The notes under the pieces were generated by a model. The model saw only the letters and a list, made by a program, of their open reading frames with translations, was not told where the DNA came from and ran no database searches. This document shows positions 475 through 15,930 of a stretch of DNA of 28,200 bases, piece after piece; position 1 is the stretch's first letter; each line of letters opens with the position of its first letter. The position numbers and the translations under genes are program-made. Source of the DNA: a virus; the IMG/VR virus record IMGVR_UViG_3300033997_000058, positions 1 through 28,200 of that record; one strand, given 5' to 3'.

Positions 475-514
475 TTGACGCGATAAGTTTTGCATATCAT
501 TACAACGCTGTCAA
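475..514 (-). promoter_or_regulatory. Bipartite promoter/operator element, copy A
   Basis: On the plus strand this reads TTGACG, 28 bases, TGTCAA. In the direction of the downstream minus-strand gene it is TTGACA (a perfect -35 hexamer), 28 bases, CGTCAA, then a leader with AAGGGG and the ATG at 456. At 17-bp spacing the -10 candidate is a poor AAAACT. Three other sites share the same arm-to-arm distance. The promoter role is inferred; the symmetry and spacing are directly visible. Confidence 0.55.
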
Positions 515-518
515 CTGG

Positions 519-2177
519 TTATCGCCTATTTCTGCGCGAGTTTAGCAGGTAGTCGTCGACCGAATTAACAGGAGGCGGGCACGAGGCAATGATTGCAGCG
601 TCCAAAATGTTTGGTGATGGAATGCCGCGCTTTTTGAGCTCCTTCTTGCCTTCCACCTTATCGCGCCCGTTATTATCAGTGTCACGCAGAGGTCTTGAGC
701 ATTCGCTGATAAACTCTTCAAGTATTTCAGGTGCAATAGTTGAGCTGTCAAAGCTAATCATTTCATCATCAGAGAATTGTTCTCCATGCTCGATCGCCAT
801 GTAAGTATTTTTAACCCTGTCTGCAAATGTCCATGTTGTTTGAGCCTTAAGGTTGCTGAACTTATCCTCGTTAGTGATGCCTTCAGCATACTCAAGTTTT
901 GGATTGATTAAATCTCGCGAGCCAGCGTTAAAACCAAAATAGCTGACTTGGTAATTATCACCAATCTCACCTCTTGACCGCTGAAATTCTTCTTCTGCCA
1001 TTTGGTTGAACTCAGCAAAGCTTGAGCCAGCGTTGGAGCCAACTCCTATCGAGTCGTATCCTAGGCTTGCTCTGTGCTTCTTGGCGTCATCATAAACAGC
1101 CCTGTAAGATTTGCGCGACTGGTCTTCTTTGTGTTGCCACTTTTTAAGCTCAGTAATAACCGAGCCTTCCATTAAACATGTGGCGTTCCAGTCATTGCCG
1201 CCATCCATGATGTCGAAGCCTAATCGCTTAGCTCCATGCTTACCAAATCCCAACTTGATATGAGCATCAACACACGCTCTCACGTAAGCGGCTGGCATTA
1301 ACACGCCATCGATTGATGCATCATAGTCAACGTCAATTTCTTGCGCCACGGTAATCGCATCTTGTTCTCTAACCTGCTTTTCATACCATGCTTTATCTTT
1401 CCTAGGGTCATCAGTCCATCGCAGGGTTAGCACCTTAACTTTTCCGCTAAACCGCTTGCGATAAAATGCATTTCCGTTGCCGTTTGGCGTTGATATGTCT
1501 ATTTGGCAGTTTGTTGTTTGAGATAGTGCCGCATCTGCTGCTTCTTGGCGCTCTAAGAATGCAGCCTCATCGACAAAATAGATTGATGTACGAGCGCCAC
1601 GGCCAATATCATATCCGCCCTCGCCAGTGAGTGTTGCCCCGTTTTCTGGATTGGTTATTTTTAGAAAGTTGGCGTGCTGCTTTTCATTGTAACCATCAGG
1701 CAAAAAGTCAGGCGGCAATAATCGCAGGAATTGGCGGCCCTTCTCAAATATGCTCTTAGGGTCGCCAAGTCTATCAACTAGGTCTACCTTTCTTGATCCA
1801 TATCCTGCCGTGTAATCATCCCAAAATAACCACATCGTACAGCCATAAGCGATTGATAGCCACGACAAGCCGAAATCGCGCGTCTTTTCCACTAGGGCGC
1901 GTTCTTGTTTGCGCCATCGGTCATGTATCCACTTGAGCGTGTCTATTTGCTTTGGGAATAATATAAACGGAACTACCGCTGGCAAGTCTCTTTCCAAGTT
2001 GCGAGGGTCAAACGTCATGCCCCAGTCTGTAATAAAGTCCCAAGGATGATTTTTGTAATGCTTTTTTGCTGCTGCCATTGCAACAGGATTGGAGCGTAGA
2101 AACTTTAAGCGCCGCTGCCTTTCGGCTAACACGGCGCTGTAGTTAGGGTTTTTGTAGTCAATTTCAATCAGTGCCAT
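519..2177 (-). CDS. terL: Terminase large subunit (packaging ATPase and nuclease)
   Basis: This is the motor that pumps DNA into the prohead and cuts the concatemer. The 552-residue protein has a terminase-type Walker A variant KTRDFGLSW (about 98-106), Walker [10 protein letters not shown] (about 199-207) and a following STPNG coupling motif (about 229-233). The C-terminal RNase H-like nuclease probably uses the Asp in LGFDIMDGG (about 322), with further acidic residues to the C-terminus. Length is normal for the family. I chose the start [10 protein letters not shown] because AGGA lies eight bases upstream. An in-frame ATG 33 bases further up (2210) has no clear ribosome-binding site and would deepen the overlap with terS, which is 14 bases with the chosen start. 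Confidence 0.95.
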
Positions 2178-2673
2178 TAAGCATGTCCTGATATATTCTG
2201 GTTGCCTCATCTGCTGACATATCGGCGGTGATTTGCTTTATGTTTTGATTGCTGTCTATGCGGCCAGAGTGATTAAGGTCTTGCTTGTCAGATAATCCTA
2301 AGTCGCGAGCAATGATATTTGGGTTGAGAAGGTCTGCCGCGGCTCCTGAGAACTTCTGCTCGTAGATTATGGTCTTGATGTCGCGTATGACCGCCGAAAA
2401 ATCTTCGTCGTTTTCATAGTCCCTTAACGTCTGCGCTCCTATCCCCAAGAATAGGCAAAGCCCCGAGATGGTCATAGCTCGCATTTTGCAAACTGAATCT
2501 TTTACTACTGCGCCTTGAAAGTGAAATGCCTTTTCTTCCATTAACGGGTTATTCTCAACCCATTCAAAATACTCACAAGCTGCATCCCATAGCACTTCTG
2601 GAGTTGAAAATATTTTATCTCTACCGTGAGAACTTCTGACCTTCCAGAATTGATTTCCTACTGGAGCTGCCAC
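2164..2673 (-). CDS. terS: Terminase small subunit, P22 gp3-like
   Basis: TerS recognises the pac site and delivers DNA to the large subunit. The 169-residue protein matches the P22 gp3 packaging family in its N-terminus ([18 protein letters not shown]) and in [16 protein letters not shown] near residues 112-127. The ending [14 protein letters not shown] is typical of TerS tails that contact TerL. The start codon is GTG, with GAGAGG upstream overlapping the end of the preceding gene. A gp3-like TerS argues for headful packaging rather than cos cutting (family knowledge). In P22 the pac site lies inside gene 3, so it may lie here too, but I cannot locate it. Confidence 0.92.
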
Positions 2674-2678
2674 AATAA

Positions 2679-2936
2679 CTACCTCTCATTAATCACCCAG
2701 TAACAGCCTACAATTTCAACGCTTGAGCCTTTGCCGTGCTCAGTAATCTCAAACGCTTTTCTAGGGATGTCCAACTGGTATTTTAGTTTAAATTCGTTTG
2801 GCATTGATTCAAACGCCATCGATACCATCTTAGCACTTAACGCGGTGTAGTGCATCACACCCAAGCCAAATCTCGGCTTAATCATCCTTTGAGTTAGTCT
2901 TTCAATCCCTGAGTCTTTCACTTGCTTCTTGCGCAT
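2679..2936 (-). CDS. Hypothetical protein before terS
   Basis: An 85-residue basic protein that I do not recognise. It sits five bases upstream of terS, so it is co-transcribed with the terminase genes. The first possible start is the ATG at 2936, since the frame has a TGA four codons upstream. That ATG has no ribosome-binding site and lies in the loop of a 12-bp inverted repeat (2891-2902 with 2963-2974). The next ATG (codon 18, [10 protein letters not shown]) falls just after the repeat and is the alternative start. The C-terminal half looks well folded ([10 protein letters not shown]). A role in packaging or regulation is possible from position only. Confidence 0.6.
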
Positions 2937-2974
2937 AGTTAAGGTTCATGCTATGGTTTTGAAAAGACTAACTC
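2891..2974. repeat. 12-bp inverted repeat around a start codon
   Basis: GAGTTAGTCTTT (2891-2902) is the exact reverse complement of AAAGACTAACTC (2963-2974). In the minus-strand mRNA the arms can pair across a 60-base loop that holds the first ATG of the gene before terS. The upstream arm also lies inside the candidate plus-strand RNA described below. Confidence 0.6.
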
Positions 2975-3038
2975 ACCAGTTCCATTCTGTAAAGTTCCCC
3001 TAGGTTGACGCCTTGCCCTCGAAAGAGGGCTTTTTTAT
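2929..3038 (+). ncRNA. Candidate small antisense RNA with its own promoter
   Basis: On the plus strand, opposite to all neighbouring genes, there is an extended -10 (TGC then TATGGT, 2952-2957) 17 bp after a weak -35 TTGCGC (2929-2934). About 75 bases later lies a textbook terminator ending in six T. The predicted RNA, roughly 2964 to 3038, has no convincing reading frame. It would be complementary to the leader of the gene before terS. The terminator is certain by eye; promoter and RNA are inference. Confidence 0.4.
3015..3038 (+). terminator. Rho-independent terminator, plus strand
   Basis: Stem GCCCTC/GAGGGC with a GAAA tetraloop is followed directly by TTTTTTATTT. Read on the minus strand it lacks a U-run, so it acts on plus-strand transcription although no plus-strand gene lies nearby. 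Confidence 0.8.
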
Positions 3039-3250
3039 TTGTAAACAATAAACTTCCTAGGCGCTCTACAATGCTTATCAACAAATCCAGCATTCCAAGC
3101 GTGATAAGGCAATATCTGACTCTTTGCGCAGTATGGGTTAAACGAGTTCAACTGCAACTCAAAACCCTCTGCGTAAAAGCTAGCTGTCAGCTCATCCATT
3201 TCTTGAGTGTTGATTGATAGCGCACTCAAGCATTTTTCTTCATTGACCAT
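3035..3250 (-). CDS. Small hypothetical phage protein
   Basis: A 71-residue protein with a compact motif NPYCAKSQ…YHAWNAGFVDKHC in its middle, a pattern I associate with small proteins in early or accessory phage clusters, without a known function. The start has AAGGAG eight bases upstream. It overlaps the end of the preceding gene by 25 bases. Its stop codon falls in the T-run of the opposing terminator. No membrane segment or catalytic motif is seen. Confidence 0.6.
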   Translation of the reverse strand: MVNEEKCLSALSINTQEMDELTASFYAEGFELQLNSFNPYCAKSQILPYHAWNAGFVDKHCRAPRKFIVYK

Positions 3251-3453
3251 TCCATTAGCTCCTTATGCGTTGGTCTGTAGTGGCGCTTGAAGATTACGTC
3301 ATAACCATCGCCTCTTTCTCTTGGAGTGCATGGGCTGCATTCTGTTTTATTTAAGCTGCACAGTTCGCATGCTGACACACATAATCCGCGAGCAACTCCG
3401 ACTGCTTTATGCTGAATACCACCAACCACGACCACATTATGTTTGATAGTCAT
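3226..3453 (-). CDS. Small cysteine-rich protein, possible metal binding
   Basis: A 75-residue protein with the cysteine series GLCVSACELCSLNKTECSPC (about residues 23-42). The C-x3-C-x2-C…C-x2-C spacing suggests a zinc-binding or iron-sulphur knuckle. The rest is basic and polar. It starts at an ATGA overlap with the gene upstream and is translationally coupled to it. I do not recognise the family. Confidence 0.6.
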   Translation of the reverse strand: MTIKHNVVVVGGIQHKAVGVARGLCVSACELCSLNKTECSPCTPRERGDGYDVIFKRHYRPTHKELMEWSMKKNA

Positions 3454-3737
3454 ATCAGTTCCCCTGTAATTGATACCGAATCAATTTTAAGCCAACTTGA
3501 TTTACTCTTTCCTTCTCGAAGAACAAGCAGCCAATCGCCAGAAGCTAAGTGCTCCGGTATTTTTTCCTTCCACTCATTAAAGCCGTCATTAACAATAACG
3601 TGACTAGGCTTTTCAAGATTGACAAATGTAAATCTTTCCTCATTGAACTCGACTAACGATCCATCCAAATCATTAAATGCACGGTATGGCTTAAGTGCGC
3701 TATACGTTGCGCCAATTTTAAAGTTACTTGCATTCAT
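3450..3737 (-). CDS. Small hypothetical phage protein
   Basis: A 95-residue soluble protein beginning MNASNFKIGATYSALKPYRA, with a central EKPSHVIVNDGFNEWKEKIP stretch. No known motif. I chose the ATG at 3737, which overlaps the stop of the 31-codon gene upstream as ATGA, over a GTG three codons earlier. It is coupled on both sides, as expected inside a tight phage operon. Function unknown. Confidence 0.6.
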   Translation of the reverse strand: MNASNFKIGATYSALKPYRAFNDLDGSLVEFNEERFTFVNLEKPSHVIVNDGFNEWKEKIPEHLASGDWLLVLREGKSKSSWLKIDSVSITGELI

Positions 3738-3829
3738 ATCAACCACTCCACAATCGACTCACCACAAGCCACGACAGCAAACACCGCGACAATCATCATG
3801 CCTTGCATTGCGTTAATTTTCTTGTTCAT
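3734..3829 (-). CDS. 31-residue membrane or lipoprotein-like peptide
   Basis: A short frame coding MNKKINAMQGMMIVAVFAVV then ACGESIVEWLI. It has two lysines, a hydrophobic stretch of about 12 residues, and VVAC, which fits a lipobox with Cys22 as the modified residue. Mature peptide would then be only ten residues. GAGAAG lies seven bases before the ATG, and the stop overlaps the next start as ATGA, which supports real translation. A second overlapping frame (3813-3908) also codes a hydrophobic peptide but has no standard start. Role unknown; it is too short for a typical outer spanin. Confidence 0.45.
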   Translation of the reverse strand: MNKKINAMQGMMIVAVFAVVACGESIVEWLI

Positions 3830-3895
3830 TTTTCATCTTCTCGTCATAGCACTTGAGCTGAATGTATCGGCCAGCGAATAGAGCTAGGCCGATGG

Positions 3896-4126
3896 TTATG
3901 CGCCTAATGCTTTCAAGGCGTCTTCGTTAAGATCACCATGCTCGCCAGTTGGCTCACTAAGTATAACCTCAGCAATGGCATACTTCTTTCCTTCCGTACT
4001 AATCATAGGTAGACGCTTGCGTAAGGTAAGTGCCTCTTCAGCTCCATTTCTGTCACTGTGCGCACCGTCAGTTAATGTTGGATTTCCATACTTATCAAGC
4101 TCTGCCAGCCAATATTGTTTATTCAT
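3896..4126 (-). CDS. Small hypothetical phage protein
   Basis: A 76-residue protein starting MNKQYWLAELDKYGNPTLTD, a style of opening common in small proteins of enterobacterial and related phages. An AAGAGG eight bases before this ATG supports the start. An alternative start at 4228 gives 110 residues and makes a TAATG overlap with the upstream gene, so the longer form cannot be excluded. The extra 34 residues are hydrophobic and Cys-containing and look less conserved in character. No function can be assigned. Confidence 0.6.
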   Translation of the reverse strand: MNKQYWLAELDKYGNPTLTDGAHSDRNGAEEALTLRKRLPMISTEGKKYAIAEVILSEPTGEHGDLNEDALKALGA

Positions 4127-4227
4127 CTCCAAGACCTCTTGTTTACTCCGCACATAACAAAGCATTGCAGAGGATAAACAGCTGAATGCGAGGTTGTGTG
4201 CTTCCTGTGTGAGCGCAGCATTTAGCA

Positions 4228-4437
4228 TTAGAACGCTGCAATACGCTTTCCTAAGATCTCGGAGTATTGCCACATAATGTCATTTTGTTCTTTCAGGAGC
4301 TCCTGTTCATCAGCGTCAAGTGTTTCGAAAATATGGCTTGTGCCGATGAAATTGCTGAGCGCTTTTGCTTTTGTATCAAGTTCACTTTTTTCATCAACTA
4401 CACGTTGTTGGTGTGGCGCTAATTGTTGTTCTGACAT
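4228..4437 (-). CDS. Small helical protein, crAss001_48-like family
   Basis: A 69-residue, almost entirely helical protein, MSEQQLAPHQQRVVDEKSEL at the start. The pattern QRVVDEKSELDTK…LSNFI…F..L…E..LLKEQ..IM.QYSEILGKRI resembles a widespread small phage family sometimes called crAss001_48-related; the match is from memory. Start chosen at the ATG with AGAGGA six bases upstream, five codons inside the longest frame. It is separated from the next gene upstream by 77 bp. Function unknown; homologues typically sit in early operons. Confidence 0.6.
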   Translation of the reverse strand: MSEQQLAPHQQRVVDEKSELDTKAKALSNFIGTSHIFETLDADEQELLKEQNDIMWQYSEILGKRIAAF

Positions 4438-4514
4438 GGAAAATCCTCTCACTTGGTTAAATTAAACCTGCCACGAAATGTAACATTGGCGTTAGTATGG
4501 AACTTTGTAAGTAC

Positions 4515-4754
4515 TCAATCATTTTTTTCCACCTTAATCAGTTGCAATTCACGCTTTGAGTAATCATGCTCTGGATGCGTGATTATCACCTCGCGCAATT
4601 CGTAGCCTTTTATCAGCATAACGCTTGGCGGGTACATGACAGCATTGCCGTCCAGTATTCCAAAGCTCCAGCCATTGTTTAAGCGGTTCTCGACAGCCTG
4701 CCGAGTCAATCCGTGAGCCTCTGCGAACTCACGGACGTTTTTTATTGACTTCAT
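4515..4754 (-). CDS. Small protein with helix-turn-helix-like motif
   Basis: A 79-residue protein. Residues about 7-29 (VREFAEAHGLTRQAVENRLN) fit a helix-turn-helix of the kind that reads xxFAxxxGLTRQAVxxRL. The rest is a small beta-rich domain with LREVIITHPEH. It could be a DNA-binding regulator of the phage early region, and is the only clear HTH candidate in the window. It starts at an ATGA overlap with the upstream gene. Whether it binds DNA is inference. Confidence 0.6.
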   Translation of the reverse strand: MKSIKNVREFAEAHGLTRQAVENRLNNGWSFGILDGNAVMYPPSVMLIKGYELREVIITHPEHDYSKRELQLIKVEKND

Positions 4755-5167
4755 TTTATTTTATTACCTTTTAGTAACGACCGAATGTCGGTCAGAATTG
4801 TTTTTATGTACTCCGTATGTTCCCACCCTTCAAGATGACAAACTTGCATGTCAGCGGCTATATCTTTCAATATCCGCTCACGCATTTTAGCCCTTGCAAG
4901 CTCATGCAGTTCTCTAGCTGGAAATGGTTGAGCGCCTGATTTTTGCTTATGGTTATCAATCGCATTGTCAGTCTCAGGCTTTTGCCGTGGCATAGCGTGC
5001 TCATATCGCTCCGGCTTAACTCTAAGCAGCATACGCTTTCCACCACGTAAAACGCTCTTGCCATCGGTTATAAAAACAGTTTGGATTACTGGCGAGCCAC
5101 AGGTTTTGTCGATGGACCAGCCCGCTGGCATACTATCGACTATCTCCCAATTTGATTTGCTAGTCAT
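4751..5167 (-). CDS. Hypothetical phage early protein
   Basis: A 138-residue protein. The N-terminus contains WEIVDSMPAGWSIDKTCGSP followed by a FITDGKSVLRGGKRMLLRV beta stretch, a pattern I have seen in conserved hypothetical proteins of enterobacterial phages. The C-terminal half is charged and helical. I chose the ATG at 5167, preceded by GGTGG. A start four codons upstream (5179) is possible. It overlaps the previous gene by eight bases. Function unknown. Confidence 0.6.
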   Translation of the reverse strand: MTSKSNWEIVDSMPAGWSIDKTCGSPVIQTVFITDGKSVLRGGKRMLLRVKPERYEHAMPRQKPETDNAIDNHKQKSGAQPFPARELHELARAKMRERILKDIAADMQVCHLEGWEHTEYIKTILTDIRSLLKGNKIK

Positions 5168-5372
5168 CTGCACCACCATTTATTGATTTTAACGTGCCCT
5201 TTAGCACCTTTTTGCGGCCTAAGCTGTAGCTATCACCAAACAAAGTCAGCCCCATGAACGAACAGCGCTTTATGTCGCCATTTGAGACTGTCATCTCTTT
5301 GCTGTTGTGCAAAACAACATCACCGACAGATAGCGAGCTAATGCATACTTCTGCAAAGTTTAAGGCGCTCAT
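5160..5372 (-). CDS. Hypothetical phage early protein
   Basis: A 70-residue beta-rich protein with LSVGDVVLHNSKEMTVSNGD and IKRCSFMGLTLFGDSY, a pattern typical of a conserved small phage protein of unknown function. It starts at an ATGA overlap with the upstream gene and overlaps the next start, so it belongs to the same polycistron. The VGDVV…N…MTV opening suggests a small barrel, but this is inference. Confidence 0.6.
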   Translation of the reverse strand: MSALNFAEVCISSLSVGDVVLHNSKEMTVSNGDIKRCSFMGLTLFGDSYSLGRKKVLKGTLKSINGGADD

Positions 5373-5572
5373 TGCAGCGCCTTGATTGTAACCGTGACTT
5401 CTTCACCAAAAAATGCCTCGTTAGCTAATTTTTTGGCAAATCCGTTAGCACCTCTTAGAGTTTTGCAAACTTCATAGCTGATTTCTCCAGACGCTCCGCT
5501 TACCGTAACTTTGTATTTTTTCACTTTAAACTCTCCAGTTCGTTTCGATGTGGTAACTATAGCAATAAACAT
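5369..5572 (-). CDS. First gene of the small-gene operon, hypothetical
   Basis: A 67-residue protein, MFIAIVTTSKRTGEFKVKKY at the start, basic and beta-rich; no known family. It is the promoter-proximal gene of the minus-strand train that leads to the terminase genes. The ATG at 5572 is preferred over a GTG two codons upstream, though neither has a strong ribosome-binding site. A sigma70-like promoter lies about 36 bases upstream of the start (-10 at 5608-5613). It ends in an ATGA overlap with the next gene. Confidence 0.55.
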   Translation of the reverse strand: MFIAIVTTSKRTGEFKVKKYKVTVSGASGEISYEVCKTLRGANGFAKKLANEAFFGEEVTVTIKALQ

Positions 5573-5607
5573 TTGCACAACGCAAGCATTATTTGCATTT
5601 ATTCATG

Positions 5608-5636
5608 ATTATTTCAGAAATGGGTATGACTAACAA
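5608..5636 (-). promoter_or_regulatory. Promoter for the small-gene operon
   Basis: On the minus strand TTGTTA (5636-5631), 17 bp, AATAAT (5613-5608). Four and five of six matches to the sigma70 consensus. It lies in the intergenic region just upstream of the first gene. Predicted by eye only. Confidence 0.45.
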
Positions 5637-5831
5637 TAAAATGGGGTTTTCATCACCCCATCGCCAAACATAGATATACCAAGGATTACAGATAAATTAT
5701 CAAATGTTATGGATTTGTTATGGACTTTTAAGAAAATCAGAATTTATCTTTAAATACATATACTTAATCTCTTTAATAGGTATATATGGGTTAAATTCTT
5801 TAGGTTCTTATCTTTTTAGCTTATTTTTGAT

Positions 5832-5861
5832 AAAAAAATAGCCAATCATTTCTGACTGGCT
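5832..5861 (-). terminator. Rho-independent terminator, minus strand
   Basis: Read on the minus strand, AGCCAGTCA and TGATTGGCT pair over nine bases with one G-U pair around a GAAA loop, followed by ATTTTTTTA. It lies 380 bp beyond a first terminator of the ATPase operon, so it may back that up or end an unrecognised transcript. Confidence 0.7.
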
Positions 5862-5893
5862 TTTATCTCTAGCATTTATAAATGGTCTATGTC

Positions 5894-5914
5894 CTCTATA
5901 TAGTCTATATAGAG
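5894..5914. repeat. Palindrome with 9-bp arms
   Basis: CTCTATATA and TATATAGAG flank the three bases GTC. The centre of the AT-rich non-coding region. It could be a protein-binding site or a cruciform. Confidence 0.6.
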
Positions 5915-6241
5915 TTATTTTATTACCTTATCTTATATTACATATTTAGTTATGAATAGATAGTGAAATTTTGATGAAAGGATGATTTTTGATTTTTTAT
6001 TTTTGGATAGATAGTACTAAATATCAAAGTGAGCCCCATTTGACCCTAAATGACGTATTTCTTATTTAAATCATTAACTTAGCCGACCCCATCGCGACCC
6101 CATTTTGCTTTGAATTTTCCCCAGTTTTGAGAAAATGGGGTTTTCGGATTTTAATGAGTAGATTAGCAATTGCAGTATTGATATATAAATTAGATTTATA
6201 CTATTTTGCCATATGCTTATAACTTTGTGAATTTTGGTTAT

Positions 6242-6267
6242 AAAAAAAGCCAGCGGTTAGGCTGGCT
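6242..6267 (-). terminator. Terminator of the ATPase operon
   Basis: Minus-strand stem AGCCAGC/GCTGGCT with a six-base loop, followed by seven T. It starts 23 bases after the stop codon of the last gene of the operon. The 10-bp palindrome GGTTATAACC flanks it. Confidence 0.85.
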
Positions 6268-6289
6268 GGTTATAACCTCATACTATTTA

Positions 6290-6436
6290 TTAGGTGACCT
6301 CAACTAAAAACCGTTTTTCAACATACTGCACATCACCAACATCATTGCGCAGTGCAACATTAAAATTATTCTCGGCAAGCGCTTTGTAAACCCTGCCAAC
6401 CGTAAATCCTCGTAAAGCTGTGTTTAATCGCCACAT
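6290..6436 (-). CDS. 48-residue basic protein
   Basis: Last gene of the replication ATPase operon. It codes MWRLNTALRGFTVGRVYKAL followed by a short acidic-basic tail ending FLVEVT. AAGGTG six bases before this ATG fixes the start; the longer in-frame extension overlaps the zinc-finger gene upstream and is not supported. The start is one base past the preceding stop. The short helix-loop-helix look could suit nucleic-acid or protein binding, but no family is recognised. Confidence 0.55.
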   Translation of the reverse strand: MWRLNTALRGFTVGRVYKALAENNFNVALRNDVGDVQYVEKRFLVEVT

Positions 6437-6437
6437 T

Positions 6438-6575
6438 TTAATCACCTTTTGGTATTTTACCGATTGGAGTTGATTTGCAGTTTTTACACCACCTGCAATG
6501 TGATGGTTGGTCAGCGTCAAATTTAAATGAATCTTTGTACTGGCAGCAACGATAACAATATTCAATATTTTTCAT
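6438..6575 (-). CDS. 45-residue zinc-finger protein
   Basis: Codes MKNIEYCYRCCQYKDSFKFD and continues with SHCRWCKNCK. The pairs C7/C10-C11 and C27/C30/C33 make a plausible treble-clef or ribbon zinc site. The start overlaps the stop of the DUF3987 gene as TAATG, which supports coupled translation. A longer frame shifted by one base covers the same DNA but is its shadow. Small zinc fingers next to replication genes often modulate DNA or RNA binding; the specific role is unknown. Confidence 0.6.
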   Translation of the reverse strand: MKNIEYCYRCCQYKDSFKFDADQPSHCRWCKNCKSTPIGKIPKGD

Positions 6576-8173
6576 TATTCGCTATCTCTCAATCTAGGTG
6601 AAATGTAATATTCCCCGCGACACATAATCACCACGTTATCCGCAATTAGCTCAGGCATGATTACATCGCGTAGGTACGTTGTTAGCTTTCCAGTCGATGC
6701 GAAAGCTTTGTTACTCTTTAGGTTTTGCTGTAATTGCTGCACTGTTATCTTCGGCAATTTGCGCTCTTTGATGTCCTTTGCGCAACGCTTGGCTAGATAC
6801 TTTTTAACTATCTCAACCTTGGGCGACAGTCCTGCACAACCTGAATCCTCGGCTGCTGCCAAGTAAGTCCGGCTAAGCTCATCAAAAATATCAATTGCGC
6901 GTTTCGTGGTTTTGTAGCCGATCACTTTTCTGCGGCGACCGTCTTTAGCCCACTCTTTGGCTGCCCACATGATTGAAGCAATCTTCTGAATTTGCTCACC
7001 GGCTTTACCCATGGTTCCGCGGATCATCGAGTCATTGAAGCGCCCATTATCTGCCATCTGTCTTTCTATCCAGTTGCGATAGTCGTTAATCAGCCCGTGC
7101 GCGTTGTCGTCGAACGTAAAGCAAATGCCTTGGTCATTGACTAGGTTGTTCACTAAATCGATATAAGCGGCTTTTAGAGAGCCATCGACAGGCTCAAAAA
7201 TGTCATGGTTTCGAGTGCCAAGCATGTGAGGTTCTTTAATTAACAAGAAACGCTCACTAATACCGCGGCCTTTGCGACCTGCTTCAAGCAGTGAATCAAT
7301 CGTTTCTGGCTGTGCCAGCACTGCACAGGTTCCTTTTACATAACCGCGAAATGCATCACGGCTAGAGCGTTGGACTGATATCCATTCACCAGACCACATG
7401 CTAAGAAATATGCCGTTGTTGGCTTTCTTTCCTTCGCTGCCGTAGACATTCCCTAGCATGACATCTATTGCATCGGCCTCGGCTGAAATGATGTTAACCC
7501 AACCATTTTGCTTGATTGCCAACTTCTCCAAACCCTCTGGCGTAGAGTCATTAACATCAACGATGTAATCAGGCAATTCTTCAAGCTCTTGCCCTTTGTT
7601 CATCATGTCGATTTCCAATCCTTCGCGCTGCGTGTCGCTGGTCGCTGATTTGTGCTGCTTGCGTAGCTCGTGCACGTCCTTCTCAATTTGTCCGCGCTTG
7701 AATTTATTGGTCTTATTGATTGACTCGTAGGCTATGCGAATCGGTAGCATGAAGGATTCATTAACGCCAGTCTTGCCAGTTGATGGCGGCTGCCCAGAAA
7801 CGCAAAACAGGTTTACTGGCCTAGTTGCATCACTGCCGCGATACGGTGCATAACTGAACTGGCGAGACATGGCAACTGATAAGCAACCAAGGCCATGCAG
7901 TAAGCAAGTATTTGGCGGGAATTTTACAGACTTTCTAACTGAGTCAGCATAAAGCTCTAACACGTTTTTGCGCCAATCCTCTTGCTTTGGCGTAACGATA
8001 TCAACACTCAATTGTTCATTTGACTGCTCCAATATCTGCGGCCAAAGAGATTCATCTTTCAGCATCTCAATGTTTGCTGGAGCATATTCAGCTATAAGCT
8101 GCGCTGGTGACATGTTTAACGACTGATAGTCGACAATCAACTGATTGACTAATTGATCTGTTGGTGAGTTCAT
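6575..8173 (-). CDS. DUF3987 replication ATPase (helicase/primase-like)
   Basis: A 532-residue P-loop protein with Walker A GQPPSTGKT (127-135), an acidic Walker B-like strand NIISAEADAIDVM (227-239) and a GRGISERFLLIKEPH stretch resembling the arginine-finger/sensor region of DUF3987 proteins. The C-terminal ~100 residues look like a winged-helix domain. DUF3987 proteins are RecA/DnaB-like ATPases in phages and mobile elements that work in replication, often beside a TOPRIM primase. Here the primase is the first gene on the opposite strand. The start has GAGG five bases upstream, overlapping the preceding stop. The helicase activity is inferred from family. Confidence 0.82.
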   Translation of the reverse strand: MNSPTDQLVNQLIVDYQSLNMSPAQLIAEYAPANIEMLKDESLWPQILEQSNEQLSVDIVTPKQEDWRKNVLELYADSVRKSVKFPPNTCLLHGLGCLSVAMSRQFSYAPYRGSDATRPVNLFCVSGQPPSTGKTGVNESFMLPIRIAYESINKTNKFKRGQIEKDVHELRKQHKSATSDTQREGLEIDMMNKGQELEELPDYIVDVNDSTPEGLEKLAIKQNGWVNIISAEADAIDVMLGNVYGSEGKKANNGIFLSMWSGEWISVQRSSRDAFRGYVKGTCAVLAQPETIDSLLEAGRKGRGISERFLLIKEPHMLGTRNHDIFEPVDGSLKAAYIDLVNNLVNDQGICFTFDDNAHGLINDYRNWIERQMADNGRFNDSMIRGTMGKAGEQIQKIASIMWAAKEWAKDGRRRKVIGYKTTKRAIDIFDELSRTYLAAAEDSGCAGLSPKVEIVKKYLAKRCAKDIKERKLPKITVQQLQQNLKSNKAFASTGKLTTYLRDVIMPELIADNVVIMCRGEYYISPRLRDSE

Positions 8174-8180
8174 TTTCGCC

Positions 8181-8420
8181 TCACTTAATATTTATTGAAT
8201 AATTTTTAAGACCAATCCTGTCACAAGTTCCCTTTACTGCGTCAAGGGATTTGAACACTCTAAGCTTTTTTGAGTGAGTTGTTATTACTTTTACTGATTC
8301 AAGGTTTAGCGCCTCACTTTTTAGCTCAAGATGGTATCCGCCATCACATTTAATAGCGGTAACGCAGAACGGCATGTTTAGCGCTGCGTATGACTTTAGC
8401 TGCATTTCTGTTGAAACCAT
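8181..8420 (-). CDS. Small hypothetical protein, first of the ATPase operon
   Basis: A 79-residue protein, beta-rich, with VKVITTHSKKLRVFKSLDAV and a following GLKNYSINIK. The 'RxFKSLDxA…G…F/YxI' ending is common in small phage proteins of unknown function. AAGGA six bases before the ATG fixes the start. It is seven bases upstream of the DUF3987 gene and shares its promoter, so a replication-linked role is likely but unproven. Confidence 0.6.
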   Translation of the reverse strand: MVSTEMQLKSYAALNMPFCVTAIKCDGGYHLELKSEALNLESVKVITTHSKKLRVFKSLDAVKGTCDRIGLKNYSINIK

Positions 8421-8460
8421 TATAAATCCTTATTTCGTGTTGACGTTTTTTAAATTCGTA

Positions 8461-8500
8461 TTGACGACGTGATACTATTTCAATATCATCCAACCGTCAA
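8461..8500. promoter_or_regulatory. Divergent promoter and bipartite element, copy D
   Basis: TTGACG (8461-8466), 28 bases, CGTCAA (8495-8500), a perfect inverted repeat of the arms. Plus promoter: -35 TTGACG, 17 bp, -10 TATCAT (8484-8489), driving the primase. Minus promoter: -35 TTGACG (8500-8495), 17 bp, -10 TAGTAT (8477-8472), driving the ATPase operon. The two promoters overlap face to face. A third TTGACG at 8440-8445, with the context CGTRTTGACG repeated at 21 bp, could add a regulator site. Confidence 0.65.
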
Positions 8501-8519
8501 CCATAATTTGGAATTAATC

Positions 8520-9575
8520 ATGTACGACATAGATGCAATAAAAGCGGCGGCAAATGGTCGATGGATTGAAATATTCAACGCTTGCGGGATGGGTGTTACT
8601 GGTATTAAGAATAAGCATGAAGCCTGCCCAATCTGCAATGATGGCGTTAAGCGTTTTCGTATTGATGATATTCTCGGCGATGGCACTTGGATATGCAACC
8701 ACTGCGGCGCTGGTGATGGCCTTAAGTTGGTGCATCTTTACAAAGATAATTTCAAAGATGCACTTGAATTTGTCGCTGGTTATGTTGGCATCTCGCCAGA
8801 AGTGCAAATCGACCAAGCTGAAATTGATAGGCGCAAGCGTGAGTCTGCTGAGCGCAACAAGGCACGAATCAGCCAAGATGCAGCGGCAAAGCTATCAACC
8901 ACCGAGCAAGCTGCCATTGGCGCAAGCATGATAATGCAGCACGCAGAACCAGCCACAAGACACGCATATCTGACTAAGAAGCAAATCAGCGGCATCACTG
9001 CCTGGTTTATGCCTGAGTCATTTTTGATACCCACGACAGAAGGCCAAACCGACATCAAAGGTCGCCTAGTCATACCGATGATTAACGAACGTCGAGAATT
9101 GATAAACTGCCAGATTATTGACTCTGATTTCAAAATGTTTTTGCTTGGCGGTCAAATTATCGGCGCGTTTCATTTGATAGGCTCAGTGCGCTCTGGTGAC
9201 GTTATTCTGATTGGCGAGGGATATGCCACCATGAACACATTACACGATGCCACATGCTTTCCCTGTGCAGTTGCATTCAATGCGAATAACTTGCTTGCCG
9301 TGTCGCGCATCATTCAGATGCTCTATCCTTCAAATGACAAAATTATCACAGCAGACAATGACCATCACAACAATCACAAGAAGGTCGGCAATGATGGGCT
9401 GAACAAAGGGCGCATTGCATCAAATGATATTGGCTGCCGAATGGTCACTGTGCCAAACCAACAAGGTGTTAGCGACTTCAACGACTTTGATGTGATCAAT
9501 GGACGTGATGCGCTGATTAATTTACTAACTGAGCTAAAAGTGATTGACAAATTGCAAGCTGGGTGCAATCATTAA
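8520..9575 (+). CDS. Zinc-ribbon TOPRIM primase
   Basis: A DNA primase of the phage/P4 type that makes RNA primers for replication. The 351-residue protein has an N-terminal zinc ribbon CPIC…GTWICNHCGAGDG with Cys36, 39, 59 and 62. The TOPRIM core has VILIGEGYAT (Glu233) and IITADND (Asp279, Asp281), then QQGVSDFNDF (314-323), typical of phage TOPRIM primases. The start MYDIDAIK is chosen with GGA seven bases upstream; a longer frame begins inside the promoter. It is transcribed away from the DUF3987 ATPase, which probably supplies the partner ATPase activity. No helicase domain is fused. Confidence 0.9.
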   Translation: MYDIDAIKAAANGRWIEIFNACGMGVTGIKNKHEACPICNDGVKRFRIDDILGDGTWICNHCGAGDGLKLVHLYKDNFKDALEFVAGYVGISPEVQIDQAEIDRRKRESAERNKARISQDAAAKLSTTEQAAIGASMIMQHAEPATRHAYLTKKQISGITAWFMPESFLIPTTEGQTDIKGRLVIPMINERRELINCQIIDSDFKMFLLGGQIIGAFHLIGSVRSGDVILIGEGYATMNTLHDATCFPCAVAFNANNLLAVSRIIQMLYPSNDKIITADNDHHNNHKKVGNDGLNKGRIASNDIGCRMVTVPNQQGVSDFNDFDVINGRDALINLLTELKVIDKLQAGCNH

Positions 9576-9583
9576 CTTGTCAA
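9544..9583 (+). promoter_or_regulatory. Bipartite promoter/operator element, copy B
   Basis: TTGACA, 28 bases, TGTCAA. The left arm is in the last codons of the primase gene. With 17-bp spacing the -10 candidate is AATCAT (9567-9572). The right arm runs straight into CTAACTAAGAGG, the ribosome-binding leader of the next gene. Same arm distance as copies A, C and D. Confidence 0.55.
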
Positions 9584-9601
9584 CTAACTAAGAGGTTAAT
9601 C

Positions 9602-9919
9602 ATGGAGCTAAGCAAAATTCTCGAAATGATGCAAGATGCAGATGTTCGCAATAATTGCCAGTACGCCTTGCAAATTAGCACTCGCGACTGGCTTAAAAAT
9701 CGCGATCTAATTGCCACTGTTAACGAGTACATTGGCGATTCAATTGTTCGCAGTTTGCCGATAAAAAACGGCGTCAATAAGTCAATGCTTAATGAGTTTT
9801 TCGGCTCGTGCAATGTCCAGCAGTCAAAATTAGCAAGAACAATAGCAGCCCGTGACAAGCTCAATGCAGAAATTGCAGCTATGGGTGGTGATACTATGAT
9901 TTGTAATGAGGTGAAGTGA
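9602..9919 (+). CDS. Hypothetical early protein
   Basis: A 105-residue helical protein beginning MELSKILEMMQDADVRNNCQ. No known motif; the C-terminal half (LARTIAARDKLNAEIAAMGG) looks coiled-coil. The ATG has AGAGG seven bases upstream inside the leader that follows element B, so it probably opens a new transcription unit within the early region. It overlaps the next gene as TGATG. Function unknown. Confidence 0.65.
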   Translation: MELSKILEMMQDADVRNNCQYALQISTRDWLKNRDLIATVNEYIGDSIVRSLPIKNGVNKSMLNEFFGSCNVQQSKLARTIAARDKLNAEIAAMGGDTMICNEVK

Positions 9920-10170
9920 TGAAAGCTAAAGAAACTACAGCAGATTATGACCGTTACACGTGCGCAAAAGATTTAAGCATGCTTGATTATCCTTGGCGTC
10001 AAAATATGCGCAAAGACATTGAGTCTGGCGCATTTGTTAAATTTGTATCGGCCAACGCATCAGCTAAGCAGTTTGTCGTGGTTAACCTTGAGAAGTTTGG
10101 CGTTAATTTCAAGGTTACAAACTTGGGTTGTGGAGTGCAAAAAATCGAGTCGATAAAAGATGATGCCTAA
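9919..10170 (+). CDS. Hypothetical early protein
   Basis: An 83-residue protein beginning MKAKETTADYDRYTCAKDLS, not recognised. The ATG overlaps the previous stop as TGATG and has AGGTG six bases upstream, preferred over the GTG one codon earlier. The second half is beta-rich (KQFVVVNLEKFGVNFKVTNL). It overlaps the next gene by 8-11 bases. Function unknown. Confidence 0.6.
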   Translation: MKAKETTADYDRYTCAKDLSMLDYPWRQNMRKDIESGAFVKFVSANASAKQFVVVNLEKFGVNFKVTNLGCGVQKIESIKDDA

Positions 10171-10363
10171 CGACTTTGTTTGGAAGCAAGTTTATCACGG
10201 AGCTATAAAGAAAGGTGCTAATGAGCGGATAGCAAAAGAACGTGCTTGCATGGCTTCGGATAAATTCAGAAAAAGCGCTTATGGAAAAAACGCCATCAAG
10301 ATGATTGAAGATGAAATCAAAGAGGCGGTTAAGATTTCAAAAATGCATAAGGTGAACTCATGA
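10160..10363 (+). CDS. Small basic hypothetical protein
   Basis: A 67-residue helical, lysine-rich protein with WKQVYHGAIKKGANERIAKE and an ERACMASDKFRKS stretch, a 'GANER.A.…A' pattern seen in small phage proteins of unknown role. Two consecutive ATG codons (10160 and 10163) are possible starts and neither has a strong ribosome-binding site; coupling to the upstream gene is likely. Its stop overlaps the next start as ATGA. Confidence 0.55.
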   Translation: MMPNDFVWKQVYHGAIKKGANERIAKERACMASDKFRKSAYGKNAIKMIEDEIKEAVKISKMHKVNS

Positions 10364-10491
10364 CATCAGAACAAATCAAGGCGCTCATCGAAACTAACGA
10401 GCGCCTTTGGGCGGCTAATAAAAATCTCATTGCAGAGATTGAGAGGCTGAAAAAGACGCTTGATCGTGAAACGATTAAGCGTTACAATTAA
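10360..10491 (+). CDS. 43-residue coiled-coil peptide
   Basis: Codes MTSEQIKALIETNERLWAAN followed by KNLIAEIERLKKTLDRET, almost certainly one amphipathic helix with leucine/isoleucine heptads (I6, L9, L16, L23, I27, L30, L34). It begins at an ATGA overlap with the upstream gene and has AGGTG six bases before the ATG. Likely a small oligomerisation or adaptor peptide; function unknown. Confidence 0.55.
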   Translation: MTSEQIKALIETNERLWAANKNLIAEIERLKKTLDRETIKRYN

Positions 10492-10505
10492 TAAAAGGGG
10501 TTAAC

Positions 10506-10628
10506 ATGCCAATATCTTTTAAGAAGTGCGCAGAGTGTGGGGTAAGTTTTTATGGTACAGACAAAGCAAAGTTCTGCTGTAGCAATTGCAGGGTTAAATC
10601 GCACAGGGGAAAAACAAAAAAGAAGTAA
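10506..10628 (+). CDS. 40-residue FCS-type zinc finger
   Basis: Codes MPISFKKCAECGVSFYGTDK then AKFCCSNCRVKSHRG. Cys8, Cys11, Cys24/25 and Cys28 make an FCS-like treble clef, with a basic tail ending in lysines. AAGGGG lies five bases before the ATG, the best ribosome-binding site in the area. It stops at 10626-10628 just after an A6 run. The GIY-YIG gene overlaps it in the +1 frame; removing one A from the run would fuse the two into about 295 residues. It is either an independent small protein or the displaced N-terminus of that nuclease. Confidence 0.6.
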   Translation: MPISFKKCAECGVSFYGTDKAKFCCSNCRVKSHRGKTKKK

Positions 10629-11394
10629 AAAGCCAAATGGATACTGGCTGATAAGAGAGCATGTAGAGGAAGAAGCTAAAAAATACAGAACAAAGTCAGA
10701 GATGAAGTTAAAAAACAACCCAGCATTTACTGGAATGTCAAAGCTATCCATATCTGATGAAATCTTTACTTTAGGAAAGAAAAGTAATGGGTATTTGACT
10801 GTTGAAAAGTGTATTGATGCAGCTAAAAAATACAAATCAATAGCCTCTTTTTCTAAAAGTAAAGATAAAACAGCTTACAATATGCTTTGCAAGCTTGGGT
10901 TAATAATTGATGCAACAAGCCATATGAAATTAAATAGGGTTAACAATAATTATTGGACATTTGATAGATGCGTAGAAGAGGCGCTTAAGTACAAAACAAG
11001 AAATGAATTTAAAACTCTTTCTATAGGCGCTTATGATAAGTGCCATAAAAATAAGTGGTTAATCGATGTTTGTAGTCACATGGTTAGCGGGTATAAGACA
11101 AGTGATTGTGTATACGTTTGGAAGGTTGCTGGTCATGAAAATGTGTACAAGATAGGTCTGACAAAAAATACCATTGTAGAAAACAGAATAAGCTTTGTTG
11201 AAAAATCTAATAACATAAAAGCTGAGAATAAAACTAGCTTTTTGATTAAAGGCAACGCTTACCAAGTAGAGCAGGAATGCTTAATGTTTGGAGAAAGGTT
11301 TTACGGTTTTAGCGGCGATGGTTACACAGAGTTTAGGACGCTAACAGCAGTCCAATACCAAGATTTAATTAATTTTATACAAACTAAAGTTTAG
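10552..11394 (+). CDS. GIY-YIG (T5orf172-like) homing-endonuclease-like protein
   Basis: The frame gives up to 280 residues. Three repeats at about 31-63, 81-125 and 134-177, of the type YWTFDRCVEEALKYKTRNEF…CSHM, resemble NUMOD-like DNA-binding repeats of phage homing endonucleases. The C-terminal domain has GIY-like VYVWKVAG (187-194), YIG-like VYKIGLTK (198-205), Arg212, and GDGYTEFR with Glu260, as in T5orf172/MUG113 nucleases. The gene is visibly more AT-rich than its neighbours, suggesting recent arrival. Its true start is unclear: the ATG at 10552 has GGGG nine bases upstream but lies within the zinc-finger gene. A free-standing mobile nuclease between early genes is the likeliest identity. 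Confidence 0.72.
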   Translation: MVQTKQSSAVAIAGLNRTGEKQKRSKKPNGYWLIREHVEEEAKKYRTKSEMKLKNNPAFTGMSKLSISDEIFTLGKKSNGYLTVEKCIDAAKKYKSIASFSKSKDKTAYNMLCKLGLIIDATSHMKLNRVNNNYWTFDRCVEEALKYKTRNEFKTLSIGAYDKCHKNKWLIDVCSHMVSGYKTSDCVYVWKVAGHENVYKIGLTKNTIVENRISFVEKSNNIKAENKTSFLIKGNAYQVEQECLMFGERFYGFSGDGYTEFRTLTAVQYQDLINFIQTKV

Positions 11395-11407
11395 ATTGGG
11401 GTGTCTA

Positions 11408-13234
11408 GTGGAAATACCGACATTTGGCAAGTTAACGCCTCGCCCGTATCAGTGGGAAGCTATCCAGAACATTAAGCAGTTTATCCGCGAGCAATTCATA
11501 TCGTTCAAGAATGGCGGTGAAGTTAAAAACGCCATTCTTAACGCCTCTGTATCAAGTGGAAAATCATTAATAATGGGCGCAGTTGCTGCGCACTGCCAGC
11601 GCACAAACCGCCGCTGCATGATTCTGACTGACATAGGTGAGCTTTGCGACCAAAACGGCCAAGAGGCTTGGTCGATGGATGTTAAAACCTCGTTTTATTC
11701 GGCCTATGTCGGCCAGAAGTCAAACTATTACAACGTGGTGAGCGCAACGCTTGGAACAGTGGCCAATGCACTTAATCGCGATTATGCCACGGCTGAAACA
11801 GTGCCAAAGGTTTTGTTAATTGATGAATGCCATAAATTGCCGATTGAAGACATGGACGGCGAAAAGGCATCACAATATGCCCAAGTAATCGAACACTTTA
11901 AAAAGATTAATCCTGCATTGGTCGTGGTCGGTTTTACAGGAACGCCATGGCGCGGAACTAGCTCAATACTTGGATCATTTTGGTCGGAAGAATTGAAACC
12001 AGTGATTGACCGTGAGTTTTTGAAAGCTAACGGCTACACGGTTCCTGACGTTTTCGGTTTTACTGATAACGAATACGACCTAAGCGAATTCAACAATTTT
12101 ACCGAAAATGACACTGGCGACTATTCGAAAGCCGATTTAGAGCGTATGCAAGAGAAGATGGATTTGTCCACTACTCAAAAAATCATGCATGACGTTATTG
12201 AAATGGCGGCCAATCGAAACGGCGTATTAGTGACTTGTAGCGGATTTAAACACGCTCAAGAGGCCGCCAGCGTGTTAGGTGATATTCCGCACGCAATCTT
12301 TACGACTCAGCAATTGCAATCAAACACAGGGCTTAAAACGCGCAAAGAAATAGTTGACGCTATTAAGTCAGGCAAGATTAAGTATCTGTTTCAGATTGGC
12401 TGTTTCAGTGTCGGCTTTTCGGCTCCCTACATCGACACATCGGTAATTTTGCGCAGAATTGGCAGCCTTACGCTACTTGAGCAATTGCTTGGCCGTGGTC
12501 GCCGCTTACAAAATCAATGGATGCTTGACGCTGGAATTAACAAGGTCGATCACCTAGTTCTCGACTTTAGCGGCACACTCGAAGCCATGGCTGACCTGTT
12601 CAATAACCCTGTGCTTGAAGACGCTATGAAAGCCAAGGACAAGAAAGACAATAAATTCTTGAATTGCGCCAACTGCGGAACCGAGCACGGAGTTCACGCT
12701 CGCAGATGTCCTAACGAGCAGTGCGGAGAGTGGTTTAAATTCCGTGTGTGCGAGGATTTGCGCTTGAATGGAATCTTAGTGGATAAGGGCTGTGGAGTTA
12801 AAAACGACATAGCATCTAAAACGTGCTCTGGCTGCGGAAAATATCTGATTGACCCTAACGCCAGACTATCGCACAAACCCTACACAGATGCCGATTGGAA
12901 GCCTGTGCAGCGTATGGAATTGGCAATTGCCGGGAATCGCAGTGATGCTATCCAGGTGAAGTATTATTTGGACTCATACGGCTTGGACGGAAAACAGGAA
13001 ATAGCCACGGTCAACTACTGGGCGATAATGTCAGGCGGCAAGCGAGTATGGGAAAGTAAGTTTGTGAAACAGCACGTTAAACCAGCACTATGGAAAACCG
13101 TGTTAAGCATGACTCCAGCGGCAATTGTGCAAAGCACTAATTTATTTATCACTCCCAAAATGGCGACTCACCGAATAAATGCGAAAGGTGAGTCAATTGT
13201 TAATGTAAGCAAAAAGGATAAGGTGGCGGCATGA
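11408..13234 (+). CDS. SF2 DEAD/DEAH-type helicase with zinc ribbons
   Basis: A 608-residue superfamily 2 ATPase of the type III restriction/DEAD group. PRPYQWEA resembles the Q region (11-18), motif I is ASVSSGKS (46-53), motif II DECH (139-142), motif III GFTGTPWR (175-182), motif V near GCFSVGFSAP (331-340), and motif VI QLLGRGRR (359-366). After the helicase core come a four-Cys ribbon (C420, C423, C434, C439) and a second cluster (C462, C473, C476). A GTG start is chosen with GGGG six bases upstream; a TTG four codons earlier is less likely. It is coupled to the next gene by ATGA. It probably unwinds recombination or replication intermediates; substrate unknown. Confidence 0.88.
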   Translation: MEIPTFGKLTPRPYQWEAIQNIKQFIREQFISFKNGGEVKNAILNASVSSGKSLIMGAVAAHCQRTNRRCMILTDIGELCDQNGQEAWSMDVKTSFYSAYVGQKSNYYNVVSATLGTVANALNRDYATAETVPKVLLIDECHKLPIEDMDGEKASQYAQVIEHFKKINPALVVVGFTGTPWRGTSSILGSFWSEELKPVIDREFLKANGYTVPDVFGFTDNEYDLSEFNNFTENDTGDYSKADLERMQEKMDLSTTQKIMHDVIEMAANRNGVLVTCSGFKHAQEAASVLGDIPHAIFTTQQLQSNTGLKTRKEIVDAIKSGKIKYLFQIGCFSVGFSAPYIDTSVILRRIGSLTLLEQLLGRGRRLQNQWMLDAGINKVDHLVLDFSGTLEAMADLFNNPVLEDAMKAKDKKDNKFLNCANCGTEHGVHARRCPNEQCGEWFKFRVCEDLRLNGILVDKGCGVKNDIASKTCSGCGKYLIDPNARLSHKPYTDADWKPVQRMELAIAGNRSDAIQVKYYLDSYGLDGKQEIATVNYWAIMSGGKRVWESKFVKQHVKPALWKTVLSMTPAAIVQSTNLFITPKMATHRINAKGESIVNVSKKDKVAA

Positions 13235-13425
13235 TTACTAGATATTACATATCACAAGACAAAGAGCTTAAGGTAAAAATAAGGGCTAGCGATGAAGAAA
13301 TGGAGCTAGCAACAGAGATAACAATGGATGCTATCAAAAATCTTGTTAGAGTGGATTTTGTTGGTTACTGGCTTGCAAAGTTTGGATTCATGAAATTAGC
13401 AATGAAGTTCAAGGTGGCATCTTGA
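13231..13425 (+). CDS. Small hypothetical protein between helicase and nuclease
   Basis: A 64-residue protein starting MITRYYISQDKELKVKIRAS. It is coupled to the helicase gene by an ATGA overlap and to the VRR-NUC gene by a TTGA overlap, so all three are made together. The C-terminal part (VGYWLAKFGFMKLAMKFKVA) is amphipathic and basic. No known family; a helper of the helicase or nuclease is possible from position only. Confidence 0.6.
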   Translation: MITRYYISQDKELKVKIRASDEEMELATEITMDAIKNLVRVDFVGYWLAKFGFMKLAMKFKVAS

Positions 13426-13850
13426 CTGAAATCCTAACCACCACTAACCGCGCTGGCTTGACGATTTACAAGCCAGCAATCAAGCAGGTTGATCGCCTTG
13501 AGAAGTCCGAGCAAATCGACTTAAACGCGCACTGTGCGAAACGCTGGCCTGTTGAATATGAATCAATGTGGCACACAATCAACGAGAGTGGTGCGGGAGG
13601 CTCTGCTCAATACGGCGCAATGCTGAATCAGCAAGGACGAAAGAAAGGCGTTGCTGATTGGCTAGTCATGATCCCTCGCGGAGAATATCACGGCCTATTC
13701 ATCGAGCTTAAGCGCTGCCATAGCGGCACGATATCGAAAGAGCAAAAGGCCTTCATGCTACGCCAAGAATCTCTTGGTTATCGCTGCGTTGTGGCCTACG
13801 GTTTCCGCGCAGCGCTCAAGGCAATTGAAGATTATTTTAATTTAAGTTGA
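13422..13850 (+). CDS. VRR-NUC nuclease
   Basis: A 142-residue stand-alone VRR-NUC domain of the PD-(D/E)xK superfamily. GRKKGVADWLVMIP carries Asp79, and GLFIELKR gives Glu95 and Lys97. ISKEQKAFMLRQESLGYRCV supplies the following helix with Gln108. Stand-alone phage VRR-NUC proteins are structure-specific, Holliday-junction-type nucleases by family knowledge, which fits the helicase and RecT/exonuclease context. The start is TTG, preceded by AGGTGG and overlapping the upstream stop. An alternative ATG is at codon 49, too far inside. Length is typical of phage members. Confidence 0.88.
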   Translation: MTEILTTTNRAGLTIYKPAIKQVDRLEKSEQIDLNAHCAKRWPVEYESMWHTINESGAGGSAQYGAMLNQQGRKKGVADWLVMIPRGEYHGLFIELKRCHSGTISKEQKAFMLRQESLGYRCVVAYGFRAALKAIEDYFNLS

Positions 13851-13886
13851 CAATAGTTTTAGATAGATTAATATTGCATTTGTCAA
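13847..13886 (+). promoter_or_regulatory. Bipartite promoter/operator element, copy C
   Basis: TTGACA, 28 bases, TGTCAA. The left arm includes the stop codon of the nuclease gene. The -10 candidate is AATATT (13870-13875) at 17 bp, or TAATAT at 16 bp. The right arm runs into CTAACAAGGGG, the ribosome-binding leader of a 19-codon frame, and would drive the RecT/exonuclease unit. Confidence 0.6.
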
Positions 13887-13903
13887 CTAACAAGGGGTTT
13901 ATT

Positions 13904-13963
13904 ATGTACGAAGATAACACGCAGTATTTCGGTGAGGATTATCCAGTGGGGCAGCCAAAATGA
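13904..13963 (+). CDS. 19-residue leader peptide
   Basis: Codes MYEDNTQYFGEDYPVGQPK. It has the strong ribosome-binding site AAGGGG six bases upstream, better than most full genes here, and its stop overlaps the next ATG as ATGA. The peptide is acidic and aromatic with no hydrophobic core. It may be a leader that couples translation of the recT unit, or a small protein in its own right. Confidence 0.45.
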   Translation: MYEDNTQYFGEDYPVGQPK

Positions 13964-14211
13964 AAAACGCAGATATGCCAGCAATGCCAACAAGCCCAAA
14001 CAGTAACGATCCTGAATGGGCAGCCGCTAGAACTGGCGGGCTAACCAAGCGCGAAATGTTCGCTATGGCAGCAATGCAAGGAATGCTATCTCATCCTGAT
14101 GTTATTCACGCTAATGACGATGAAGAACATGAAACCATAGCTCATGCTGTTGCTGCTAATGCAGTATTGATGGCGGATGTATTGCTTAGTAAATTGGAGC
14201 TATCAAAATGA
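13960..14211 (+). CDS. Hypothetical protein upstream of recT
   Basis: An 83-residue protein. GGLTKREMFAMAAMQGMLSH (about 27-46) followed by an acidic DDEEHETIAHAVAANAVLMADVL helix is a pattern found in conserved small phage proteins near recombination genes; function unknown. It has ATGA overlaps at both ends, so it is coupled to the leader peptide and to recT. Confidence 0.65.
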   Translation: MKNADMPAMPTSPNSNDPEWAAARTGGLTKREMFAMAAMQGMLSHPDVIHANDDEEHETIAHAVAANAVLMADVLLSKLELSK

Positions 14212-15850: not shown

Positions 15851-15854
15851 TGTA

Positions 15855-15889
15855 AGAAAAGACGCATAACTTAATATCAATTATGCGTC
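15855..15889 (-). terminator. Terminator of the tail operon
   Basis: Perfect 9-bp stem GACGCATAA/TTATGCGTC (15861-15869 with 15881-15889), loop of 11. On the minus strand it is followed by TTTTCTT, so it ends the tail transcript; on the plus strand it is followed by GGGG, a poor terminator for the exonuclease operon. Confidence 0.75.
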
Positions 15890-15930
15890 GGGGATATTAG
15901 TGTTGATGCTGCTGTCACGCTTCTTTAGTA

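Follow-up and report, generated by a model that had tools for sequence, protein, structure and literature searches.

The window analysed here, i.e. the whole stretch of 28,200 nucleotides (positions 1 to 28,200 of IMG/VR virus record IMGVR_UViG_3300033997_000058), represents 28.2 kb of a tailed phage genome. Genes for terminase, tail tape measure protein, DNA primase and a DUF3987 DNA helicase were identified in it, together with a second ATP-dependent helicase gene, a VRR-NUC gene and RecT-like and RecE-like genes. The primase gene (8520-9575, + strand) carries a zinc ribbon and a PHROG primase match. As judged by the terminase, the nearest isolate is Pseudoalteromonas phage TW1 (74%). Relatives of the window were gathered by means of the primase, the terminase and a DNA pattern, and the lineage that bears the element described below is an uncultured marine phage group. 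When 84,980 species genomes were scanned with the terminase and with a helix-turn-helix (HTH) protein, no relative, prophage or other, could be confirmed, and no integrase was seen in the window, itself a fragment. The lack of confirmed relatives in cellular genomes fits a presumably lytic life style of the phage.

Paired arms in the window

Four exact copies of TTGACR-N28-YGTCAA, 40 bp each, had been reported in the initial annotation, and all of them were confirmed at 475-514 (site D), 8461-8500 (site A), 9544-9583 (site B) and 13847-13886 (site C), each lying upstream of a gene. TTGACR occurs 21 times and YGTCAA 23 times on the + strand of the window, and the spacings from TTGACR to YGTCAA up to N120 comprise N28 four times, N12 once and N49 once, with no others, which means that no spacing except N28 is represented by more than one pair. 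About 0.017 pairs are expected per given spacing from these arm counts; the chance expectation put forward earlier (0.007) was two- to threefold too low, which leaves the conclusion unaffected. An unbiased scan of all inverted 5-mer pairs at spacings of 5 to 60 ranked TTGAC-N30-GTCAA first in the window (4 seen versus 0.072 expected; for this particular word and spacing, p is 1e-6), and the same word ranked first at N31 in three relatives, designated G002 (four copies), G012 and G018 (five copies each). Nothing like the TTGAC/GTCAA pair was found in the ten others scanned, namely TW1, G009-G011, coliphage T1, phage tuinn, two Vibrio phages, XCL1123 and ZP9. When IMG/VR was scanned widely with GTCAACTAAC appended to the pattern, 39 matches were obtained at N28/29 as compared with 21 at N31/32; six of the 39 fall in the lineage, and most of the others resemble chance or unrelated promoters.

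Site A is bidirectional and is located between divergent genes. Its rightward promoter, which drives the primase gene (ATG at 8520), comprises the -35 TTGACG (8461-8466), the -10 TATCAT (8484-8489) and the +1 arm CGTCAA (8495-8500). Its leftward promoter, serving the gene at 8420-8181 on the - strand, has its -35 at 8500-8495, its -10 TAGTAT at 8477-8472 and its +1 arm at 8466-8461. Site B points rightward, with the -35 TTGACA (9544-9549) within the end of the primase gene, an extended -10 TGC-AATCAT (9567-9572), the +1 arm TGTCAA (9578-9583) and an ATG at 9602. Site C is also rightward, and its -35 TTGACA (13847-13852) overlaps the stop codon of the VRR-NUC gene, followed by the -10 AATATT (13870-13875, or TAATAT at 16 bp), the +1 arm TGTCAA (13881-13886) and an ATG at 13904. 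Site D lies on the - strand, with the -35 TTGACA at 514-509, a weak -10 AAAACT at 491-486 preceded by TGC, the +1 arm CGTCAA at 480-475, and then a ribosome-binding site (RBS) and, at 456, the ATG of a leftward gene whose remainder lies outside the window.

Two further features were noted beside these sites. An unpaired third arm, CGTCAA at 8440-8445 on the - strand, lies 21 bp to the left of site A and has no TTGACR at N28/29; it stands 19 nt ahead of the ATG of the gene at 8420-8181, the usual distance, and is missing from the site A counterparts in G002, G012 and G018. After site C, a 19-codon open frame (13904-13963) has a stop codon that overlaps the ATG (13960, as ATGA) of an 83-aa gene, and this frame is possibly a leader peptide or a translationally coupled start.

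Promoter anatomy and transcription-unit heads

In the direction of the gene, the left arm forms a sigma70-type -35 hexamer, and a -10-like hexamer follows at a distance of 17 +/- 1 bp. At the eight sites scored (four in the window and four others), a -35, a spacer of 16-18 bp and a gene-oriented -10-like hexamer were found, and all eight forward hexamers have A2 and T6, site D being the weakest, while A2/T6 are mostly missing from the reverse -10-like hexamers at one-way sites. Since the right arm starts 5-6 bases past the -10-like hexamer, its Y is placed at the predicted -1 and its G at the predicted +1. The distance from the right arm to the start codon is 17-21 nt at one-way sites, and at site A it is 19 nt rightward and 40 nt leftward. 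The earlier view that one arm is a -35 hexamer and the other falls on the predicted start was upheld, and related phages have kept the two arms together as one unit. What is found is a sigma70-type promoter bearing a second, inverted -35 hexamer 28 or 29 bp on. The right arm tends to extend as GTCAACTAA, with no matching preference in the flank of the left arm, and at the dyad no consistent inner palindrome was detected, the spacer showing little inner dyad symmetry. A simple symmetric dimer site is therefore not obvious, given the one-sided GTCAACTAA extension and the weak symmetry of the spacer.

The two arms are closely coupled near start codons. All YGTCAA located 14-23 nt before an RBS and start codon in G002, G012 and G018 are paired with TTGACR at N28/29, as are two of the three in the window, the lone one being the arm at 8440-8445; six comparison phages have two such start-proximal YGTCAA in total, both unpaired. 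In G012 and G018 the element was found at the head of most transcription units, these units having been called from open reading frames. Regulation had initially been proposed for early and accessory genes, which is too narrow, as tail and portal-region units of the relatives are headed by the element too. The clearest exception is the coat-protein unit of G012 (13490-17124), which is without arms and has TTGTAC-N18-TATAAT, with a consensus-like TATAAT; it may represent a separate promoter class.

Conservation among related phages

Six orthologous groups of sites (A-F) were recognized, of which the window carries A-D, E and F being predicted to lie past position 28,200 of this phage, and these groups recur ahead of equivalent genes in the related contigs G001, G002, G004, G012, G017-G020 and G030-G032. 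Group A serves the primase and an opposite unit, group B the gene after the primase, and group C is located after VRR-NUC. Group D is leftward and lies just past the terminase large subunit gene, group E is flanked by an MT-A70-like methyltransferase unit on one side and an early-looking unit on the other, and group F is found between a tail unit and another rightward unit. Genes on both sides are served by groups A, E and F. The two promoters of A and of E have arms in common, and group F consists of two interleaved elements (8299-8345 in G012 and 33230-33276 in G001), one for each divergent promoter and each equipped with a separate -35 arm and start arm. The element set is absent from TW1, G006, G009, G010 and G011 despite a 74-76% identical terminase, and the element is accordingly specific to one lineage.

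Across orthologues TTGACR and YGTCAA are retained, with changes at the R/Y position only. When the spacers of the window were aligned with those of the relatives, 11-13 of 28 positions matched at sites B and D, 16-17 of 28 at site C and 14-17 of 28 at site A; random spacers under the same alignment gave a mean best of 10.6 matches (95%, 14). Because the arms have been kept while the spacers diverged to or near random identity, these alignments establish purifying selection on both arms. The conservation of the arms in related phages that was expected from the initial annotation was thus found, and pairs at other spacings, which in equal numbers would have spoken against the element, were not equally frequent; the fixed spacing of 28 holds within the window but not across the relatives, where it is either N28 or N29. 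Site A is at N28, again between divergent genes, in G001, G002, G012, G018 and G030, whereas the three sites B, C and D each have N28 in the window and N29 in the relatives (for site D, in G002, G012, G018 and G030). This joint difference of B, C and D fits a trans-acting factor with an altered preferred geometry.

Interpretation of the element and its candidate readers

Two inverted conserved half-sites with a spacing of 28 or 29, repeated genome-wide, constitute an operator-type geometry, and we see about an even chance that the element is a lineage-specific promoter-operator module, located at most unit heads, whose two arms are both contacted by one trans-acting factor. A symmetric operator around a promoter had been suggested earlier; the two-armed element around the promoter stands, while the operator role and the single regulator are still putative. 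In such a module, host RNA polymerase would take the left arm as the -35 and would initiate at or beside the G of YGTCAA, and a phage or host protein would most likely bind TTGACR at both ends, with arm centres 34-35 bp apart. The trans-acting factor would block or time initiation (a presumed sign of regulation), and by covering the -35 and the start site together a single reader could switch or time the units. At bidirectional sites each arm would act as the -35 for one promoter and as the start arm for the other. A more specific version is offered tentatively and with some doubt, namely that the half-site of a dedicated regulator is the -35 hexamer itself, read at -35 and mirrored at +1 about 34-35 bp apart, with one protein controlling early, replication and structural units and divergent promoters swapping -35 and start roles.

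The main rival, and a live one although we hold it to be unlikely, is that the right arm is an initiator or leader element, that is, a conserved start sequence YGTCAAC... whose mirror likeness to the -35 is coincidental and which involves no regulator; it would serve to make initiation efficient, to allow promoter escape or to form the 5' end of a short leader. The placement of the arm agrees with this, its G being 6-7 nt after the -10 and its end, at one-way sites, 17-21 nt before the start codon, and so does the conserved GTCAACTAA extension on the downstream side only. The start arm of the reverse promoter in group F, CATCAA, retains a purine at +1, the one-base variation in spacing is as in start sites, and a YR start motif at -1/+1 would partly predict the right arm. 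However, a free start motif would be expected to coincide with the TTGACR reverse complement in only about one case in a thousand, only two distances from the -35 are used though the position of the -10 and the leader vary, and right arms without a left arm are nearly absent.

It is improbable, in our estimation, that the right arm is simply the -35 of an opposing sigma70 promoter and that all sites are overlapping face-to-face promoters or what is left of such promoters. Groups A, E and F, which are flanked by genes on both sides and have reasonable -10s both ways, would suit this explanation, but the one-way sites combine a perfect arm with a reverse -10 that is poor or unconserved (AGCTTG/CAGCTT in B and CATTAC in D), and in group F the outer start arms come on top of the -35 arms in use. 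Group F keeps the start arm though two -35 arms would suffice for divergent transcription, and among the sequence comparisons this interleaving speaks most strongly for a start arm that matters in its own right and is more than a reverse -35. An origin of the pairs by chance, or by recent duplication of a single promoter, is extremely improbable. Nothing beyond the shortness of the arms speaks for it, the four spacers of the window have no sequence in common, and orthologous spacers have diverged to or near the random level with the arms recurring in all relatives; this recurrence in related contigs refutes it.

The promoter-operator module was also compared with known systems, and the element is best filed among phage promoter-operator modules. 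The sites resemble the sigma70 (RpoD) promoters of lytic phages in their TTGACA-like -35, 16-18 bp spacer, -10-like hexamer and pyrimidine-purine start, but differ from them in the second, inverted -35 hexamer fixed on the start site, which is better conserved than the -10. In Escherichia coli, bioO (the BirA operator) is an interrupted palindrome of about 40 bp over face-to-face promoters with half-sites at its outer ends, and BirA half-sites are longer and closer together than the arms described here. The likeness to bioO lies in the interrupted palindrome of about 40 bp whose outer half-sites span promoters, and the difference in that the promoters here are mostly one-way and scattered across a phage genome. 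The bidirectional promoters described in E. coli have one common -10, with start sites within it or on either side (PMC12825309). Sites A, E and F could similarly seat polymerase in two mutually exclusive orientations, but their -10s are separate and the common parts are the -35/+1 arms; at site A the forward -10 occupies element positions 24-29 and the reverse one positions 12-17. A literature search, in which subscription journals were sparsely covered, yielded no description of the TTGACR/YGTCAA pair in a phage.

Another short inverted pair repeated across lytic siphovirus genomes, TAGCA-N5-TGCTA, was observed ten times in coliphage T1 (0.05 expected) and four times in phage tuinn. Several copies lie right behind a stop codon and before promoter-like sequence, and the set looks like an operator set of T1-like phages. 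It differs from the element of the window in being a compact 15-bp palindrome of other sequence that does not span the -35 and the start, and T1-like phages were rejected as carriers of the TTGACR/YGTCAA element on account of this different palindrome.

With six conserved sites heading most units, an uncultured marine phage group gains a readable regulatory code. Should the -35 hexamer be read by a protein at both ends, this would amount to two-point control of host-polymerase promoters, and the protein would be a candidate for action on host promoters as well. Should the right arm prove to be a start-site element instead, it would be an unusually strict natural case of an initially transcribed sequence under selection.

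Three phage proteins were considered as readers of the arms, and none of them was supported in this role. The small HTH_17-like protein at 4515-4754 (- strand), the regulator candidate of the initial annotation, does co-occur with the element, a homologue being present in every motif-positive contig that spans the primase region. The window protein itself has no Pfam match to HTH_17 (PF12728), and its G030 homologue scores 16.7 bits, below the cut-off of 27. The predicted model (pLDDT 78) consists of an H-T-H and a beta hairpin, an HTH-plus-wing pattern, and gave weak matches only against the PDB and viral libraries. However, the second helix of the family differs, with TRQAVENRLNNGW in the window protein, SQQVMHHRCKAGW in that of G002 and SPQLAKQKRDNGY in that of G012, while the sites are the same, and the closest homologue, 56% identical over 46 residues, comes from Shewanella phage ZP9, which has zero sites. 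The candidacy of this protein is weakened by the divergent recognition helix and the site-free ZP9. An 89-aa Fis/NinH-like HTH protein (32166-32435 in G012), 98% identical among G012, G002 and G018, was also rejected, as G030, whose sites are the same, has only a 38% homologue, and Vibrio phages 1.210 and 1.076 carry homologues without sites; no homologue of the G012 protein was found in the window. The 79-aa protein encoded at 8181-8420 (- strand), in the unit that site A drives leftward, was rejected on its predicted alpha-beta fold, which is without a helix-turn-helix and whose nearest PDB matches, all weak, are mostly eukaryotic ribosomal proteins. The ZP9 homologue of the protein at 4515-4754 corresponds to an unannotated small HTH frame with a TTG start, situated between annotated genes at 15795-15953. 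The arms may instead be read by a protein of the host, or by one that the phage encodes beyond the window.
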